DNA from: Acidiferrobacteraceae bacterium
GTDB lineage: Bacteria; Pseudomonadota; Gammaproteobacteria; Acidiferrobacterales; Sulfurifustaceae
Assembly (NCBI GenBank): GCA_021323795.1
Contig: JAJPKH010000115.1
Span: 1 to 37,021 of the forward strand
DNA: 37,021 nt
Direction: 5' to 3'
The notes under the pieces: generated by a model
Databases searched by the model: none
What the model saw: only the letters and a program-made list of their open reading frames with translations
What the model was told of the DNA's origin: nothing
Shown: one piece after another, positions 3,141 through 24,588 of the stretch
How the letters are laid out: each line of letters opens with the position of its first letter
Numbering within the stretch: the first letter of the stretch is position 1
Made by a program: the position numbers and the translations under genes

Positions 3141-3292
3141 GCGTTGCGGTCGGGAACTTATCGTCCGCTTGCGGACCGCATTGCAAAACGCCCGCCTGGG
3201 CTGCGGATTGCATCGTCTACGGGCCCAGTGTAGCGTACCCCGCGTTGGCAATGCGCAATCGAGAGTAATAACAATCCGCTTTTGCCATGTTG

Positions 3293-3310
3293 TTCTGCCG
3301 TACGGCAGAA
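3293..3310. promoter_or_regulatory. Perfect 18-bp palindrome upstream of the ABC substrate-binding protein gene (possible operator)
   Basis: TTCTGCCGTACGGCAGAA equals its own reverse complement; 66 bp before the ATG at 3377. Confidence 0.45.
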
Positions 3311-3376
3311 TCGGTTACGTCGATCGTTGGGGTGCAGTTAACCGGTTCAACGTTAATAACCTGGAGGTTCACAAAA

Positions 3377-4651
3377 ATGCGACGCCGAATGCGGGCGGTC
3401 CTCGTTGCTGTGTCAGCCGCGGCCGCTTTGATGGTCACGACAACGCAAGCCGCCGAAAAACCCATAAAAATCGGAATCATCGGGCCGATGGCCTTTGTCC
3501 AGGGCGAAAACCATTGGGCGGGCGCCGAGCTTGCCAGGGACGAAATCAACAAAGCGGGCGGTATTAAGGTCGGAAGCCAAAAGCACCCGATCGAGATAGT
3601 CAAAGTGGATTCGAACGAAATACAAAGCGTGCCGGATGCGACCAACGCCATGGAACGCGCGCTGACGCAGGACAAGGTGGATTTCGTCATCGGCGGATTC
3701 CGTACCGAAGCCGTGCTCGCGATGCAAGACGTCGCCATGGACTACAAGAAGATCTTCCTCGGCGTCGGCGCGGCGCATGAGCAACTCGGGCTGCGCGTGC
3801 AGCAAAACTACGATCGCTACAAGTATTGGTTCCGCATCGCGCCGATCAAGTCCGGCGATCTCGGCAAAGTGCTTTTTGCGGGGCTCGGCGCCATCGCGGC
3901 ACAAATCCGCAACGACCTCGGCAAACCCGTCCCGAAAGTCGCGATCGTGGCGGAAAAGGCCGTATGGGTGGAAAGCATCGTCAAAGCGGCGCAGGACAAC
4001 CTGCCGAAAATGAAGATGGAGGTGGTCGGCGTGTGGCAGCCTTCGCCGGTCGCGACCGATGTCACGGCCGAGCTCTCCGCCATTCGCCGCGCCGGCGCGG
4101 ATCTGGTCTTCACCGCGATCTCGGGCCCGGTCGGCATCGTCATGGGCCGCCAGATGGGCGAGTTGCAAATCCCGGCGATTCCATTCGGCATCAACGTCGA
4201 AGCGCAGAAAGAAGGCTTCTGGCAGGCGACCGCCGGCAAGGGCAATTACGTCTCGACGCTCGATACGTACGGTGAGGGCGTGGAAATCACTCCACAGACG
4301 CTTCCGTTCGTAAACGCCTTCAAGAAACGCTTCGGCAAGCCGCCGACGTATACCGCCTCGACCTACGACGCGATGTATGCATTAAGAGCCGCCGTCGAAA
4401 CGGCCGGCACGATCGACGCCGACAAGCTCGTACCGGTACTCGAAAAGACGGATCTCGTCGGCGCCGCCGGGCGCTTGGTGTTCGATAAGCTGCACGATCC
4501 GGTGTTCGGCCCCGGCTACGTCACGGGGCTCGCCGTGCAATGGCAGGACGGAAAGAAAGTCGCCTTCTGGCCGAACAACTGGAACGGCGTCACGTACAAA
4601 GGCGTACAGACTTTCAAGATACCGCCGCAGATGATGCAAAAGAAAAACTGA
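3377..4651 (+). CDS. Branched-chain amino acid-type ABC transporter periplasmic substrate-binding protein
   Basis: GGAGGT ribosome-binding site then ATG at 3377; signal peptide; Peripla_BP_6-like (KIGIIGPMAFVQGENHWAGAELARDEINKAGG, TASTYDAMYALRAAVETAG); followed by LivH/LivM-like permeases. Confidence 0.92.
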   Translation: MRRRMRAVLVAVSAAAALMVTTTQAAEKPIKIGIIGPMAFVQGENHWAGAELARDEINKAGGIKVGSQKHPIEIVKVDSNEIQSVPDATNAMERALTQDKVDFVIGGFRTEAVLAMQDVAMDYKKIFLGVGAAHEQLGLRVQQNYDRYKYWFRIAPIKSGDLGKVLFAGLGAIAAQIRNDLGKPVPKVAIVAEKAVWVESIVKAAQDNLPKMKMEVVGVWQPSPVATDVTAELSAIRRAGADLVFTAISGPVGIVMGRQMGELQIPAIPFGINVEAQKEGFWQATAGKGNYVSTLDTYGEGVEITPQTLPFVNAFKKRFGKPPTYTASTYDAMYALRAAVETAGTIDADKLVPVLEKTDLVGAAGRLVFDKLHDPVFGPGYVTGLAVQWQDGKKVAFWPNNWNGVTYKGVQTFKIPPQMMQKKN

Positions 4652-4668
4652 AGCGCTGAGCGGCTCGG

Positions 4669-4699
4669 GCGCCCTTGGTCCCGCCGGGACCAAGGGCGC
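4669..4699 (+). terminator. Strong intercistronic hairpin between the substrate-binding protein and LivH-like permease genes
   Basis: GCGCCCTTGGTCCC-GCC-GGGACCAAGGGCGC, perfect 14-bp stem with 3-nt loop, followed by only a weak T-rich tract (ATTTGTG). Confidence 0.6.
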
Positions 4700-4750
4700 A
4701 TTTGTGTCCGGCCTGCTCACCGCCATCGTAATCGCCGCGAAGCGTTAATC

Positions 4751-5620
4751 ATGTTTCAAGACATCCTGATCACCGGGCTGGTAAATGGAGGCGTGTACGC
4801 GCTCCTGGCCGTAGGCTTCTCGCTCATCTTCGGCGTGGCGCGCATCGTCAACATCGCGCACACCGCGTTTTACATGCTCGCCGCTTACCTCGTGTATGCG
4901 TTTCTCAACATCGCCGGCCTGCCCCTGCTGGTTTCCGTCATCCTCGCCGTCGGATTGGTAACCGCCTTGAGCATGGTTTGTTACAAACTGGTCATCGAGC
5001 CGGTGCGCGAGTACGAGTCGGCCGTGCTGATCGCCACCATCGCGCTGGCGCTGATCTTTCAAGAATCCCTGCTGCTCACGTTCGGCGGAAACTTTCTCGG
5101 CAGCCCGACCTTGATCGCCGGCAACATGGACGTGGCCGGCGTGCGCGTCACCTACCAGCAGTTGTTGACGATCGTCGTCGTCGCGCTGGTGCTCGCCGGC
5201 ACGTGGTTCTTGCTGCACAAGACGCGCCTCGGGCTCGCGATTCGCGCCACCGCGAATGATCTCGAGGTCGCCAATTTGATGGGCATGAACGTCGGGCGCA
5301 TCGCCATGTACACGGTCGCCATTTCCGTCGCCTTGGCCGCGATCGCGGGCGTCGTCGTCGCGCCGCTCTTTGTCGTCGATCCGCTGATGTGGCTGGCGCC
5401 GCTGGTTACGATGTTGGCCATCGTCGTTCTCGGCGGGCTGGGCAGCCTGAAAGGCAGCCTCATCGGCGCTTTTATCATCGCTTACGTGGAGGCCATCACG
5501 GTATTCACCGTGCCGGCGGGATCGTTCTTAAAGGGGGCGGTGGCGTTGTCCATTATGGTCGTGGTTTTGCTCATCCGGCCCGAGGGTTTGTTCGGGGTCG
5601 CTTTCGAAGAAGAGAGATAA
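4751..5620 (+). CDS. livH: Branched-chain amino acid ABC transporter permease (LivH-like)
   Basis: LITGLVNGGVYALLAVGFSLIFGVARIVNIAHTAFYMLAAYL and GGLGSLKGSLIGAFIIAYVE; hydrophobic throughout. Confidence 0.92.
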   Translation: MFQDILITGLVNGGVYALLAVGFSLIFGVARIVNIAHTAFYMLAAYLVYAFLNIAGLPLLVSVILAVGLVTALSMVCYKLVIEPVREYESAVLIATIALALIFQESLLLTFGGNFLGSPTLIAGNMDVAGVRVTYQQLLTIVVVALVLAGTWFLLHKTRLGLAIRATANDLEVANLMGMNVGRIAMYTVAISVALAAIAGVVVAPLFVVDPLMWLAPLVTMLAIVVLGGLGSLKGSLIGAFIIAYVEAITVFTVPAGSFLKGAVALSIMVVVLLIRPEGLFGVAFEEER

Positions 5621-6669
5621 TGCGCGCCCTCATTTATCCGATACGGCGCGCTTATATCCTGCTGCGCACCGAGGTCTTCGCGCTGCCGAGCCGGGCCGTG
5701 GTTTTTCTGTTCAGCCTCGCGCTGCTGCTGCTGCCGCTTTACTCGACCGATCCCTACGTGCTGCGCATCGTCATCATGACCTGCGTGTTCGCGATTTTCG
5801 CCGCCAGCTGGGATCTGCTCGCCGGCTACACCGGGCAGGTCAATTTCGGACACGCGCTGTTCTTCGGCATCGGCGCGTATGCCTCGTCGCTGCTTAACTA
5901 TCACTTTCAGTTGAGCCCCTGGATCACGATACCGATCGGCGCGATCTCCGCGATGCTCGGCGGTATTCTCGTCGGTATTCCGTGCCTGCGCCTGCGCGGA
6001 TCGTATTTGAGCCTGGCCACGCTCGCGTTTCCGCTGATTCTCATCGGCCTCCTGTTCGCGTTCCCCGGCTTCTCCGGCGGCGAGCTCGGCATTTCCGGAA
6101 TCCAGCGGCTCTTTACCTATCCGGTGCACAATTACTACGCCGCGGTGATCCTGATGCTGGTGCTGTGCTTCGCCATGTGGAAGATCGGCGATTCCAACAC
6201 CGGGCTGATCTTTCACGCGATCCGCGAAGATGAAGTCGCGGCGCGCGCGTCCGGCATCAACACCAAGCGCTACAAGCTGCTGGCGTTCGGCTTGAGCGGC
6301 TTGTTCGCCGGCATCGCGGGCGCCTTCTTCGCGCATTTCATCCGCATCGCCGGCCCGTCGACGCTGGAGGTGGCGCTGTCGTTCCAGGCGGTGATCTGGG
6401 GCATCTTCGGCGGCGTCGCGACGATCTACGGTCCCGTCGTCGCCGTCTTCATTCTCTATCCGCTGACGGAAGCCGTCGCGGTATTTCCCGCGCTGCGGGA
6501 ATACCGGCTGCTGATACTGGCGATCGTGGTATTGCTGGTGCTGCTCTTCATGCCGCAAGGATTGACGCCGTGGCTGCGCAACAAAATCGAAACCGTGTGC
6601 CGCCGCTGCAAGAACCGCAACGTGTTCTGGCGGCGCGAGTGCCGGGTGTGCGGCACGGAGTTGCACTAG
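5620..6669 (+). CDS. livM: Branched-chain amino acid ABC transporter permease (LivM-like) with C-terminal four-Cys tail
   Basis: ATG at 5620 overlaps the upstream TAA (TAATG); AASWDLLAGYTGQVNFGHALFFGIGAYASSLL and GGVATIYGPVVAVF; C-terminus CRRCKNRNVFWRRECRVCGTELH. Confidence 0.92.
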   Translation: MRALIYPIRRAYILLRTEVFALPSRAVVFLFSLALLLLPLYSTDPYVLRIVIMTCVFAIFAASWDLLAGYTGQVNFGHALFFGIGAYASSLLNYHFQLSPWITIPIGAISAMLGGILVGIPCLRLRGSYLSLATLAFPLILIGLLFAFPGFSGGELGISGIQRLFTYPVHNYYAAVILMLVLCFAMWKIGDSNTGLIFHAIREDEVAARASGINTKRYKLLAFGLSGLFAGIAGAFFAHFIRIAGPSTLEVALSFQAVIWGIFGGVATIYGPVVAVFILYPLTEAVAVFPALREYRLLILAIVVLLVLLFMPQGLTPWLRNKIETVCRRCKNRNVFWRRECRVCGTELH

Positions 6670-15438: not shown

Positions 15439-16671
15439 TTGGGGGAAACGGGTGCAATCCACGTACCAGGCATGCAGCAGATGATCCCCAGCGACGTCGC
15501 ACCGGCGCCGCACGACGCTCCGAGCGCAAGCTCGGAAAAGCCGGTGATTCTCGTCATCGACGACTCGCGCGTGATCCGTCGCGCGATCACGAAAATACTC
15601 GCCAACGAGTTCACCCTGGTTGAGGCGGAAAACGGCGAGGCCGGCTGGCAACAGTTGGCGGCGGACGAGCGCGTGCAAGTCGTCATCACCGACGTCGAAA
15701 TGCCGAAACTCGACGGCTACGCGCTCATTTGTCGTATCCGCGCGGCGGACGTGCAACACCTGCGCGACATCCCCGTCATCGTGATCACCGGCGCCCAAGA
15801 CGATCAAACCCGCGAGCGCGCCTTCGCCTGCGGCGCCACCGACTTCGTGATCAAGCCGATCGATGGCGTGCAACTGCTGGCGCGCGCACGCGCGCACGCG
15901 CGTCTCGACCAGACGACGCGCAAGCTCAACGAAACGGCGAAGTCGCTCGAAGAGCAGACCGCGGTCGATCCCCTGACGGAATTGCACAGCCGCCGCTACT
16001 TCGCGCAACGCGCCGCGCAGGACATCGCCTTCGCCAAGCGCCACGGACAGGACCTCGGGGTTATTCGTATCGACTTCGACAACTTCCGCAATATCTACAA
16101 ACATTACGGCGACGACGCCTGCGATCAAATGTTCCTATGGCTGGCGAGCTTGATGCGCGCGAATACGCGCGCGGAGGATACGCCGGCGCGCATCCGCGGC
16201 GGCGAATTCGCCATCCTGGCTCCGTCGTCGGATGTTTCCGAAGCTTCGGTGGTATGCGAACGGCTGCGCGCCGCGGTCGCCGATGCCGTCTTTGAACACG
16301 ACGGCGCGCGCGTGCCGCTCACGGTGAGCGTCGGACTCGCCACCCTCAACGGCGATCGGCTCGACACCATCGAGGACTTGCTGGCGCGCGCGGAACAGCG
16401 GCTGACGCTCGCCAAAGCCGCGGGCGGCAACCAGCTCGGCGTGGGATACGAACAGGAAGTCCCTGCTCCTGAAGAGGCGATCATCGAGCAACCGGACATC
16501 GAGACGGCTTTGCGGATGCTCTCGAACGGCGAGGGCGGAAAGCTGGCGCCGTACTTGCCCGAATTGATCGCGCGCGTAGTGCCGTTGATCGAGCTGTGCG
16601 ACAAGCAACTCGAGCTCGACATCGGCGTCACGTTACAGAACCTTCGGGAGCGCCTCGGCATTGTGAAATAA
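15439..16671 (+). CDS. REC-GGDEF response regulator with degenerate GGDEF motif (RGGEF) and C-terminal extension
   Basis: REC: ILVIDDSRVIRR, ITDVEMPKLDGY, VIKPIDG; GGDEF domain: DPLTELHSRRYF, RAED-TPARI-RGGEF, LTVSVGLATL; start may be the internal ATG at MQQMIPSD. Confidence 0.9.
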   Translation: MGETGAIHVPGMQQMIPSDVAPAPHDAPSASSEKPVILVIDDSRVIRRAITKILANEFTLVEAENGEAGWQQLAADERVQVVITDVEMPKLDGYALICRIRAADVQHLRDIPVIVITGAQDDQTRERAFACGATDFVIKPIDGVQLLARARAHARLDQTTRKLNETAKSLEEQTAVDPLTELHSRRYFAQRAAQDIAFAKRHGQDLGVIRIDFDNFRNIYKHYGDDACDQMFLWLASLMRANTRAEDTPARIRGGEFAILAPSSDVSEASVVCERLRAAVADAVFEHDGARVPLTVSVGLATLNGDRLDTIEDLLARAEQRLTLAKAAGGNQLGVGYEQEVPAPEEAIIEQPDIETALRMLSNGEGGKLAPYLPELIARVVPLIELCDKQLELDIGVTLQNLRERLGIVK

Positions 16672-21383: not shown

Positions 21384-23666
21384 TCAGCGCTTGCGCGCGG
21401 ATCGCACGAGCGGACCCGACGAGTTGACTTTGGACGATCCGGTGCGGGCGCGAAACCACCGGTGCGAGGCGAAGAACCCGGGGTCGGGCAGCGCCTCGGC
21501 GGGGCGGGCGATGGCGTGGCCTTGGGCGAAGCTGACGCCAAGCTCCGCGATGCGTTGCAACGTCTCCCGATCCTCCACCGACTCGGCCACGGTCTGCATG
21601 CCCAAGGCATTTGCGATCTGAACGATCGAGCGCACCATGACTTCGTCGAGCGCGTCGGACATCATGTTGTGCACGAAAGTGCCCGAAATTTTGATGAACG
21701 CGGCCGGCAGGTGCTTCAGGTAATTGAGCGAGCTGAAGCCCGAGCCGAAGTCGTCGAGCGCAAAACGGCAACCGAGCTTCCCTATTCCCTCGACGACGGC
21801 GCGTGCCCGATCCAACTGACGTATCGCCGCCTGCTCGGTGATTTCGAAAACGAGATGCTCGCCGGGCAGCTTGTGCCGTGCGAGTTCCTCGCCGACGATG
21901 CGCATGAGCACCTCGCCTTCCTCGAATACATGCCCGGAGAGATTCACGAAAAACGTCGCTGACCGCCCGCCGGCGCGCACGCGCGCAAGCTCTTCGCAGG
22001 CCCGCCGTATGACCCAATGATCCAGTTCCGCCAGCAGACCGAAACGATCGGCCACCGGAAGAAACGCGGTGGGCGAAACGAGCTCGCCGCCCGGCGCGAC
22101 CAGGCGCAACAGCAATTCATACATTTCGCCGGCGTCGTCGTGCAGGCCGAGTATCGGCTGGTACACGAACTTCAAGGCGTTGTCCTGGATCGCCGTCTGG
22201 ATATAACGCGACCAGGCGGGACTGTTCGAATCGGGCGAGAGCTTGGCCTCGTCGCCGTCATGCACCTGGTGCCGGTTGCCGCCCCGCGTTTTTGCCAGCG
22301 CGCAGGCGGCCGCCGCTTGCGCGAGCGCCACTTCCGCGGTCGGCTGCGACGCGTCGAGCATGGCGATGCCGATGCTGACGGTGACGGGAAAGCGCTCCTC
22401 GCCGGCGGCGAATTGAAACTCCTGCACGACGTGGTTGATCGAGCGCGCGACTTTCACCGCGCCGTCGCGATTCACGCCGCGGATCAGCGCGATGAATTCG
22501 TCGCCTTCGAAACGCGCGAGCAGGTCATTGTCGCGGATGCGCGCGCGCAACAGGCCGGCGACCTGGATGAGCAGCCGATCGCCGGCCGCGTCTCCGACGA
22601 CATCGTTCACGGCGCGAAAGCGGTCGAGGTCGATACACAACACCGCGCTGGTTTCGCCGTCGCGCTCGACGTGGCTGCGCTCCAGCGCCAGCTGGCGCTT
22701 GAAGTAGCGCTGGTTCACCAAGCCCGTGAGCGCGTCGCACTCGGCGCGGCGCAGGGCATCCGCGCGCTCCTTGAGCGCGGTAATCGTCACGTTGAGCGCT
22801 TCGCGGATCGCCGCGATCTCCCGGTCTCCGCCGCCTTTGCTCATATCGACGTCGATGTCGCCGCGCGCCAGCCGCGCGAGCGGCTCCTGCAACTCCGTGA
22901 GCGGCGCCATCGCCCGCCGTATCTTGCGCCGGCCGAGCACCACCGCGACGCCGAACACGAGCGCGAGCGCCAGGCTGCCGCCGATCAGGCTGCGTTCGAA
23001 CTGCGCCTGCTGCGCGCCGGCGTCGAAGACAAAATCGAGAAAACCGATGACTTTCATCGACTCCCGCGCCGGCCCGTGGGCAAGATCGAGCAGTGCGTCC
23101 GGCGCGAGCACGCGTACCTGCACCGGCGCGGTCACGCGCACGCGCGCGCCGTCGAGCTCGGCCAGTTGATAGGGGCGGTTGCCCGGCTTCGCCGGCGCCG
23201 TGGAAAGCGTTTCCGCCGTCAACGCGAGCCGCGGCTCGCGGGCGCGCGCGGTATATTCGCCGAGCACACGGCCGCCGGAAGCGTCGTAATAGCGTACATA
23301 GATGATCTCGGGAACGTTCTTAAGGCGGGCGCTCAAGGCGCGCATCGCCGGCTCGGGCCGGCGCGTGGCATAGATCGGCGTGCCGAGCTCATCGAGCTCG
23401 GCGAGCCACTGCACGGCCTGCTTGCGCGCGCTGTCCTCGATCAGGCGTCCGCCGCTCCACCAAAGACCGGCAACCGCAGCGACATAGATACACAAGCTGG
23501 TCACGACGAGCGCGGCGAGCAGGCGTCCGACCAGGCTGCGATTGCCGCCGCCCGGCGCGCGGGTGGCGAAGAGTTCTCCGCGACGCCAACGATGCTGCTG
23601 CGACGCCAGTCGATCGACACCGGCGCGGAGCCAGCGGTTCATCCGTTTGCCGAAATCAGAAGACAT
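21384..23666 (-). CDS. Membrane GGDEF-EAL protein (periplasmic sensor region, HAMP-like linker, GGDEF with EGDEF motif, EAL)
   Basis: Two hydrophobic helices flank a periplasmic region; DALTGLVNQRYFKRQL, RDND-LLARF-EGDEF, VTVSIGIA; EAL: FVYQPILG...YELLLRL, FEITEQAAI, FALDDFGSGFSSLNYL, FIKISGTFV, VAESVED. Confidence 0.94.
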   Translation of the reverse strand: MSSDFGKRMNRWLRAGVDRLASQQHRWRRGELFATRAPGGGNRSLVGRLLAALVVTSLCIYVAAVAGLWWSGGRLIEDSARKQAVQWLAELDELGTPIYATRRPEPAMRALSARLKNVPEIIYVRYYDASGGRVLGEYTARAREPRLALTAETLSTAPAKPGNRPYQLAELDGARVRVTAPVQVRVLAPDALLDLAHGPARESMKVIGFLDFVFDAGAQQAQFERSLIGGSLALALVFGVAVVLGRRKIRRAMAPLTELQEPLARLARGDIDVDMSKGGGDREIAAIREALNVTITALKERADALRRAECDALTGLVNQRYFKRQLALERSHVERDGETSAVLCIDLDRFRAVNDVVGDAAGDRLLIQVAGLLRARIRDNDLLARFEGDEFIALIRGVNRDGAVKVARSINHVVQEFQFAAGEERFPVTVSIGIAMLDASQPTAEVALAQAAAACALAKTRGGNRHQVHDGDEAKLSPDSNSPAWSRYIQTAIQDNALKFVYQPILGLHDDAGEMYELLLRLVAPGGELVSPTAFLPVADRFGLLAELDHWVIRRACEELARVRAGGRSATFFVNLSGHVFEEGEVLMRIVGEELARHKLPGEHLVFEITEQAAIRQLDRARAVVEGIGKLGCRFALDDFGSGFSSLNYLKHLPAAFIKISGTFVHNMMSDALDEVMVRSIVQIANALGMQTVAESVEDRETLQRIAELGVSFAQGHAIARPAEALPDPGFFASHRWFRARTGSSKVNSSGPLVRSARKR

Positions 23667-24588
23667 AGGTCCCCGCTTGCATCGGCGGGGGAACGACGAG
23701 CCCCAGCTGTTTGGCCACTTCGATATTTATGCTGGCGCGCGCCCGCTGCAACGGAGCCAAGACCGGCGCGCCGCCGGCCGGATGCAATTGCTCGATGACG
23801 CGCGCGGCAACGTCGTGCGGATCGCCCTCCACGCTGAGCAGAGCGCCGAGACCGAGCAACTGCGCGCTGAACACCAGCGTCTGCTTGCCCTGGCGCACGT
23901 TGTAGGCAAGCACCTCGCGCAGGACCTCCGTGCTCAACACGCGGTTATCGGGAGTAAACCACACGCCCTGCACGTCGGCGTCGGTTCGCTTCGCCGCGTA
24001 CAACAGTTCCCGGTCCGACTGAACCTCGACATGCTGGAGGCGAATCCCGAGTTGACGCGCACCCGCGGCCGCTTCGCGGGCGAATTCCCCCATGCCCGCC
24101 CCGCTGATCATGGTGACGCGTTTCAGGCGCGGATCGAGCGTTTTCCACGCCTGCAATTGCTTGAGCGCCGCCGGCATCGCGCGCACGCCCCGGACCGCGA
24201 CGCGTGCGGCACGGATATCCTCGGGGTTGAAATCCTGGCAGAAAACGATCGGTCGCCCGGAAGCCTTGATGGCGATACGCGTAGCGAGCGAGCCGACGGC
24301 GATGACCGCGCCCGCCTCCTCGTCACGCAACTTCACCATCACCGCCTGGGCCTTGCGCGGATCGCCGTCGAGCTCGTAAATGCGGGCGCGCGGCAAACGC
24401 GCGCGCAACGCGTCGGCGACTTGCTGATAAGCCGCCAGGCGATCGCTGACGAGAATGGCGACGGGCGTTGAACCAGCATCAAACGTCGCACAACTGGCGA
24501 GAAAACCGCTAATGACAACGAGGAAAATAAAGCGGACAACAAAGACGCGGCGACTTGTGTCGCCCCCCCACTGACAGTTTTTCCCCAA
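23656..24588 (-). CDS. Putative substrate-binding lipoprotein (ABC_sub_bind-like, PF04392-type)
   Basis: Signal peptide with lipobox FLASC; AILVSDRLAAYQQVADALRARLP, AVGSLATRIAI, GVWFTPDNRVLSTEVLREVLAYNVRQGKQTLVFSAQLLGLGALLSVEGDP, INIEVAKQLGLVVPP; TTG start preceded by GGAAGGA. Confidence 0.85.
   Translation of the reverse strand: MGKNCQWGGDTSRRVFVVRFIFLVVISGFLASCATFDAGSTPVAILVSDRLAAYQQVADALRARLPRARIYELDGDPRKAQAVMVKLRDEEAGAVIAVGSLATRIAIKASGRPIVFCQDFNPEDIRAARVAVRGVRAMPAALKQLQAWKTLDPRLKRVTMISGAGMGEFAREAAAGARQLGIRLQHVEVQSDRELLYAAKRTDADVQGVWFTPDNRVLSTEVLREVLAYNVRQGKQTLVFSAQLLGLGALLSVEGDPHDVAARVIEQLHPAGGAPVLAPLQRARASINIEVAKQLGLVVPPPMQAGTYVF

Follow-up and report, generated by a model that had tools for sequence, protein, structure and literature searches.

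In LuxP-LuxQ, the autoinducer-2 sensor of Vibrio harveyi, a type I periplasmic binding protein works with a receptor whose periplasmic domain is Cache/PAS-like. A precedent for binding-protein control of cyclic dimeric guanosine monophosphate (c-di-GMP) signalling is NspS-MbaA, the polyamine receptor of Vibrio cholerae, where a periplasmic binding protein controls the inner-membrane GGDEF-EAL protein MbaA, which was shown to be bifunctional (PMC8967002). The activation of receptors by ligand-loaded binding proteins is considered widespread, and PF04392 is among the binding-protein signatures listed (PMC9602780). As far as the accessible text of one review goes, SBP_bac_3 is the only family of the periplasmic-binding-protein clan studied in c-di-GMP networks, and PF04392 is not discussed in the text searched (PMC8846402). 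Likewise, no description of a PF04392/GGDEF-EAL pair was found in the open-licence literature searched. Such a pair is reported here from an Acidiferrobacteraceae bacterium (contig JAJPKH010000115.1); the whole stretch analysed, 37,021 nucleotides, is referred to as the window. The gene of a PF04392 lipoprotein overlaps the gene of a membrane receptor with GGDEF and EAL domains, and we hold it likely that the lipoprotein binds a ligand and controls the c-di-GMP receptor, so that both genes make up one signalling unit.

The locus resembles NspS-MbaA in that a binding-protein gene adjoins the gene of a receptor with two predicted transmembrane helices, and the EAL motif of the receptor family most often reads EVL, as in MbaA. 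It differs in the binding protein, a PF04392 lipoprotein with a predicted type I fold nearest to TrpX, and in the eroded GGDEF domain. All 47 related lipoproteins match PF04392 (E ≤ 0.1), and no PotD/NspS-type (SBP_bac) family is among the 21 Pfam families that these 47 proteins match. With LuxP-LuxQ the pair appears to have in common, as judged from models, a type I binding protein and a Cache/PAS-like periplasmic domain, whereas the output of LuxQ is a histidine kinase and that of the window receptor is GGDEF-EAL. The best reading of these likenesses is that the pair would work like NspS-MbaA or LuxP-LuxQ and be built from different families.

The arrangement is conserved far beyond chance. 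Of the 60 related genomes compared, 14, not counting the source genome, hold a full lipoprotein orthologue (E < 1e-40), the same 14 hold the N-terminal region of the receptor, and in each related locus that was fetched the receptor directly follows the lipoprotein (Blast). No receptor orthologue without the lipoprotein was found among the 60; one genome (G034) carries just a piece of the lipoprotein where a contig ends, and the weaker matches in the remaining genomes belong to different PF04392 or HAMP proteins. A further scan compared 15 aligned lipoproteins with 84,980 genomes and returned 48 loci, which in part overlap the former set and are nearly all metagenome-assembled and most of them titled Gammaproteobacteria (Acidiferrobacterales, Muproteobacteria, Chromatiales, Woeseiaceae and others). 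The receptor lies directly downstream on the same strand in 46 of the 48, and the other two (L062 and L097) stop at the contig edge. Chance adjacency is ruled out by this co-occurrence across genomes, and the arrangement persists while pairwise lipoprotein identity falls from 90% to 23% (median 32%). When neighbouring genes were grouped by homology, in 44 of 45 loci a single group occupied the position after the lipoprotein (+1); in the remaining one, L067, a reading frame in the wrong frame had been picked at a place where a separate check found the receptor. The largest groups at positions -2, -1, +2 and +3 comprised 9, 10, 5 and 5 loci, and no flanking group exceeded five except in a single subgroup of some ten loci. 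As +1 stays constant while the flanking genes change, lipoprotein and receptor travel as a unit. A third conserved operon gene was considered and rejected, since the only upstream genes in common belong to that subgroup. There (L081, L082, L087-L090, L092, L094-L096) the pair stands after genes of an FGGY kinase, a GDPD phosphodiesterase and a DAO oxidoreductase, a setting reminiscent of glycerol-3-phosphate metabolism; this is a possible hint at the ligand within the subgroup and gives no general clue to it. Distances between lipoproteins correlate with those between receptor N-termini at 0.90 and with those between output domains at 0.81. Adjacency in every gammaproteobacterial genome checked that holds both genes strongly suggests that the lipoprotein is a sensor and not part of a nutrient importer.

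The lipoprotein exceeds the curated PF04392 cut-off (30.1 bits against 25.9, E 3.8e-7) and is the single match to this family in a profile search of the source genome. A simple pattern detects a lipobox in 40 of the 48 family members, several others having a variant (e.g. LHGC) or a start placed downstream of it. The AlphaFold model, made from a 47-sequence alignment, reached a predicted local distance difference test (pLDDT) score of 92, and its best Foldseek match was Streptococcus pneumoniae TrpX with L-Trp (3lft_A, E 8.1e-17, template-modelling score 0.66). V. cholerae VC1101 (3lkv) and Clostridioides difficile CD0873 (6hni; the open form 6hnj at 0.75) are also near, and 3lft and 3lkv, which belong to the same Pfam family, are recovered by sequence too in a profile search. 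The predicted cleft carries an FCQ(V)FN-like motif, W148, D192 and a W-x-x-PDNR motif. Ten residues (F116, Q118, N121, W148, D192, W210, N215, R216, L218 and S219, numbered as in the window protein) reach at least 90% conservation within the family and mostly differ in 23 other PF04392 proteins, whereas D214, G99 and G248 are common to the latter as well. It can be said that such family-specific invariance suggests one conserved ligand, or one partner, throughout the family; from the topology of type I binding proteins these residues would line the cleft. TrpX itself differs from the window protein at the aligned FCQ, W148 and PDNR positions, save for the common DN, and it is a binding protein of ATP-binding cassette (ABC) import, unlike the window lipoprotein, which has no linked permease or ATPase. 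An amino-acid-like ligand, suggested by the likeness to TrpX, is a guess.

In the receptor, an AlphaFold model of residues 30-310 (pLDDT 87) runs from a long helix through a small alpha/beta domain and a second long helix to HAMP, and the periplasmic segment between two transmembrane helices would be the alpha/beta domain. Its nearest Foldseek matches are Cache-type sensors, WalK (an integrative model) and KinD, of which just the first passes E 0.001; LuxQ (1zhh_B) is a weak match far down the list. Some receptor relatives give weak Pfam matches to Cache and CHASE8. The HAMP match scores 22.8 bits on the whole protein, below the cut-off of 25, and 26.1 bits on the N-terminal piece. The closest solved structure to the output part is RbdA (PA0861, 5xgb), matching residues 307-723 only; the RbdA construct has other N-terminal domains.

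Both output domains are recognised by Pfam (GGDEF, E 4e-36; EAL, E 1.5e-62), and their active sites are in different states, a point absent from the initial annotation. The GGDEF motif is canonical in 43 of the 44 family receptors that cover the region, and the window receptor, with EGDEF, is the exception. It has changed six of the 40 family-invariant GGDEF positions; the next worst member has changed two and the median is none. When set against the PleD residues K332 (the transition-state Lys), K442 and R446 (a substrate-binding Arg), as listed in PMC12943098, the window domain has R351 for K332 and G463 for R446, keeps K442 as K459, and has E387 in place of the first Gly of GGDEF. The nearest relative (G004, locus L139) has R351, G463 and the KIS motif in common with the window receptor and yet keeps GGDEF, while E387 and D359 occur in the window receptor alone and EGDEF occurs in no other of the 44 relatives. 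The erosion is a lineage trait, since R351 and G463 are found in both, and assembly error is unlikely to account for these two residues, both being present in the single-contig genome of the relative. In the EAL domain none of the 29 family-invariant positions is changed. ExL, N, ExxE, DDFGSG, K, the E352 equivalent (E695), Q and loop 6 are kept, KID reads KIS, and E517, N575, E608, E611, D638, K659 and Q715 are nearly invariant across the family. Loss of the second Glu of the ExxE at E352 in many relatives was not taken as a sign of an inactive EAL domain, because mutation of its equivalent in TBD1265 is reported to be without effect and the residue to be dispensable (PMC12943098). Judging by these residues, the window GGDEF domain is probably catalytically dead and the receptor probably breaks c-di-GMP down or binds it, with no part in its synthesis. 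A symmetric switch between synthesis and degradation is unlikely here, for family-invariant residues have been lost, two or three of them important in PleD. Most other members are, on paper, bifunctional, cyclase and phosphodiesterase at once; both their active sites look intact, so their output is probably such a switch. In the RxxD I-site, R is kept in 37 and D in 37 of 44 family receptors. Elsewhere in the window (15439-16671, plus strand), the cyclase site of a response-regulator-GGDEF protein also looks degenerate, with the motif RGGEF (ARIRGGEF).

Table 1. Features of the lipoprotein-receptor pair (window coordinates) and of PF04392 fusion genes in other loci.
Feature	Position	Strand	Details
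Lipoprotein gene	23656..24588	minus	310 amino acids (aa), PF04392 (ABC_sub_bind) solute-binding protein, TTG start
Lipobox LASC (FLASC)	24490..24501	minus	lipidated Cys33, next residue Ala; read from sequence, with signal peptide
Predicted type I periplasmic-binding-protein fold, aa 43-304	23677..24462	minus	AlphaFold, Foldseek, family-specific invariant residues
Overlap of lipoprotein and receptor reading frames, ATGTCTTCTGA	23656..23666	minus	11 bp
Membrane receptor gene	21384..23666	minus	760 aa, ATG start; transmembrane helix - periplasmic Cache-like domain - transmembrane helix - HAMP - GGDEF - EAL
Periplasmic domain between transmembrane helices, about aa 75-225	22992..23444	minus	predicted single-Cache/PAS-like alpha/beta fold; candidate docking surface
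HAMP domain, aa 249-299	22770..22922	minus	Pfam match; 42/45 relatives also match HAMP
GGDEF domain, aa 309-465	22272..22742	minus	motif EGDEF at 22494-22508; 6/40 family-invariant residues changed
EAL domain, aa 489-722	21501..22202	minus	active-site set E517, N575, E608, E611, D638, D639, K659, E695, Q715 kept
PF04392 fusion genes	L100:530-3340, L102:1488-3839, L103:1413-3329 (minus strand)

The sole in-frame start of the lipoprotein reading frame is the TTG, which is preceded by the purine-rich GGGAGGGGAAGGAAC. An 11-bp overlap with the receptor gene is possible in 12 of 46 related loci and a 4-bp one in nine, the remainder having other overlaps or short gaps; the recurrence of overlaps suggests translational coupling, which is likely for the 11-bp overlap of the window. 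Upstream of the pair lies a uracil-DNA glycosylase gene, and downstream, on the opposite strand, an alpha/beta hydrolase gene. An upstream c-di-GMP riboswitch was rejected, the window giving no Rfam match, and a promoter and terminator scan gave a signal at chance level.

We infer the following course of events. The lipoprotein would be exported and lipid-anchored, and a small molecule would bind in the cleft between its two lobes. It would dock on the receptor's Cache-like domain in the periplasm, and occupancy by the ligand would alter the docked state. The signal may then pass via the second transmembrane helix and HAMP to GGDEF-EAL and change c-di-GMP locally. With the GGDEF site eroded and the EAL site kept, the ligand would, in this organism and its nearest relative, most likely tune the breakdown of c-di-GMP or its binding by the EAL domain.

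Several points weigh against this mechanism. Co-conservation and correlated distances are also expected from simple co-inheritance. None of the 40 detected lipoboxes has Asp at +2, which under the sorting rule of Escherichia coli predicts a place in the outer membrane, and reach from there to an inner-membrane receptor would have to be explained; the linker behind the lipid Cys is 9 residues long in the window protein and 9 to 79 across the family. Finally, the source genome has 21 BPD_transp_2 and 66 ABC ATPase matches and could in principle accept the lipoprotein as a transport component. The lipoprotein might be an orphan ABC binding protein whose permease and ATPase are encoded elsewhere and which stands beside the receptor by history only, the more so as PF04392 is named for ABC transporters and the best structural match binds tryptophan for import. 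This we regard as very unlikely in view of the adjacency in all 46 informative loci despite changing flanks and of the co-presence or co-absence of the two genes. An ABC-ATPase-like gene occurs in the flanks of merely 2 of the 48 loci, on the opposite strand both times. The initial annotation had seen no permease or ATPase nearby; this stands for the immediate neighbourhood, and a search of the contig for ABC ATPases found none, but a branched-chain-amino-acid-type permease pair (BPD_transp_2, 4766-6543, plus strand) lies about 17 kb away. A distant permease partner was rejected, since the contig offers nothing but this pair, which already has its own binding-protein gene upstream (the three genes together at 3287-6669, plus strand).

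The lipoprotein could also act without any ligand, as a constitutive envelope adaptor or repressor answering redox or envelope stress, in the manner of YfiR on YfiN. CHASE8, which one relative matches weakly, is the sensor domain of YfiN; the periplasmic domain is predicted to be Cache/PAS-like, and the Cys of the FCQ motif was invariant in the first 15 members. However, the cleft motifs are strongly conserved over deep divergence and include an Asp common to other PF04392 proteins, and the receptor scores 114 bits against the YfiN/DgcN NCBIfam equivalog, whose cut-off is 325, which makes this explanation unlikely. Quite unlikely is a LapD-like receptor, in which a degenerate EAL domain would bind c-di-GMP and signal inside-out to the lipoprotein as an effector and not a sensor. 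The LapD-like topology, the eroded GGDEF and the KIS reading speak for it; on the other side, the LapD equivalog yields 176 bits with a cut-off of 1020, the EAL catalytic set is complete, GGDEF is canonical in almost all members, and the partner has a ligand-binding fold and is not a protease. Ligand control of the receptor by the lipoprotein is thus preferred, and the sensing-and-gating interpretation of the initial annotation, which had proposed it in place of transport, is partly supported. Its coordinates (on the minus strand), the lipobox, the ABC_sub_bind likeness and the periplasmic segment as now modelled were borne out, two checks that it had named, conservation of the pair and a transporter partner elsewhere, gave results in favour of its reading, and its parallel with NspS-MbaA holds for the logic and not for the family.

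Co-occurrence of PF04392 genes with GGDEF-EAL genes across genomes had also been proposed as a check, and relatives elsewhere do lie beside signalling outputs or are fused to them. Of 276 gammaproteobacterial genomes sampled, 110 have PF04392 matches, and 40 regions, hand-picked along the match list and not random, were surveyed for neighbours. Among 29 same-strand downstream neighbours there were 18 HisKA/HATPase and five GGDEF/EAL proteins, one ABC ATPase and one BPD_transp_2, while 11 of 24 upstream neighbours were TonB-dependent receptors. One GGDEF-EAL case (L125) is orthologous to the window pair; in the other four (L107, L126, L131, L136) the N-termini are unrelated, hence the pairing arose more than once. 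Fusion of domains is a classic argument that they are functionally linked, and PF04392 is fused within single proteins to PAS-GGDEF-EAL (L100), GGDEF-EAL (L102) and HisKA-HATPase (L103). A three-gene order recurs in L018, L020, L024, L026, L111, L121-L123, L126, L127 and L132-L135: a TonB-dependent receptor or barrel-like protein comes first, a PF04392 protein second, and a sensor kinase or GGDEF-EAL protein third. It looks like a wider outer-membrane-to-sensor relay.

A broader proposal, plausible and still somewhat doubtful, is that gammaproteobacterial PF04392 proteins are mainly signalling proteins common to c-di-GMP receptors and sensor kinases, often encoded behind a TonB-dependent receptor gene and sometimes fused to their outputs, the window subfamily being a conserved two-gene c-di-GMP module with one ligand and, here, a ligand-controlled phosphodiesterase with a dead cyclase. 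Few external signals controlling c-di-GMP are known, and a conserved, isolated module of two genes whose sensor is soluble and can be purified offers a direct route to a new one. If it is true that PF04392 proteins of Gammaproteobacteria are mainly sensors, many genes annotated as ABC transporter components would be misnamed.

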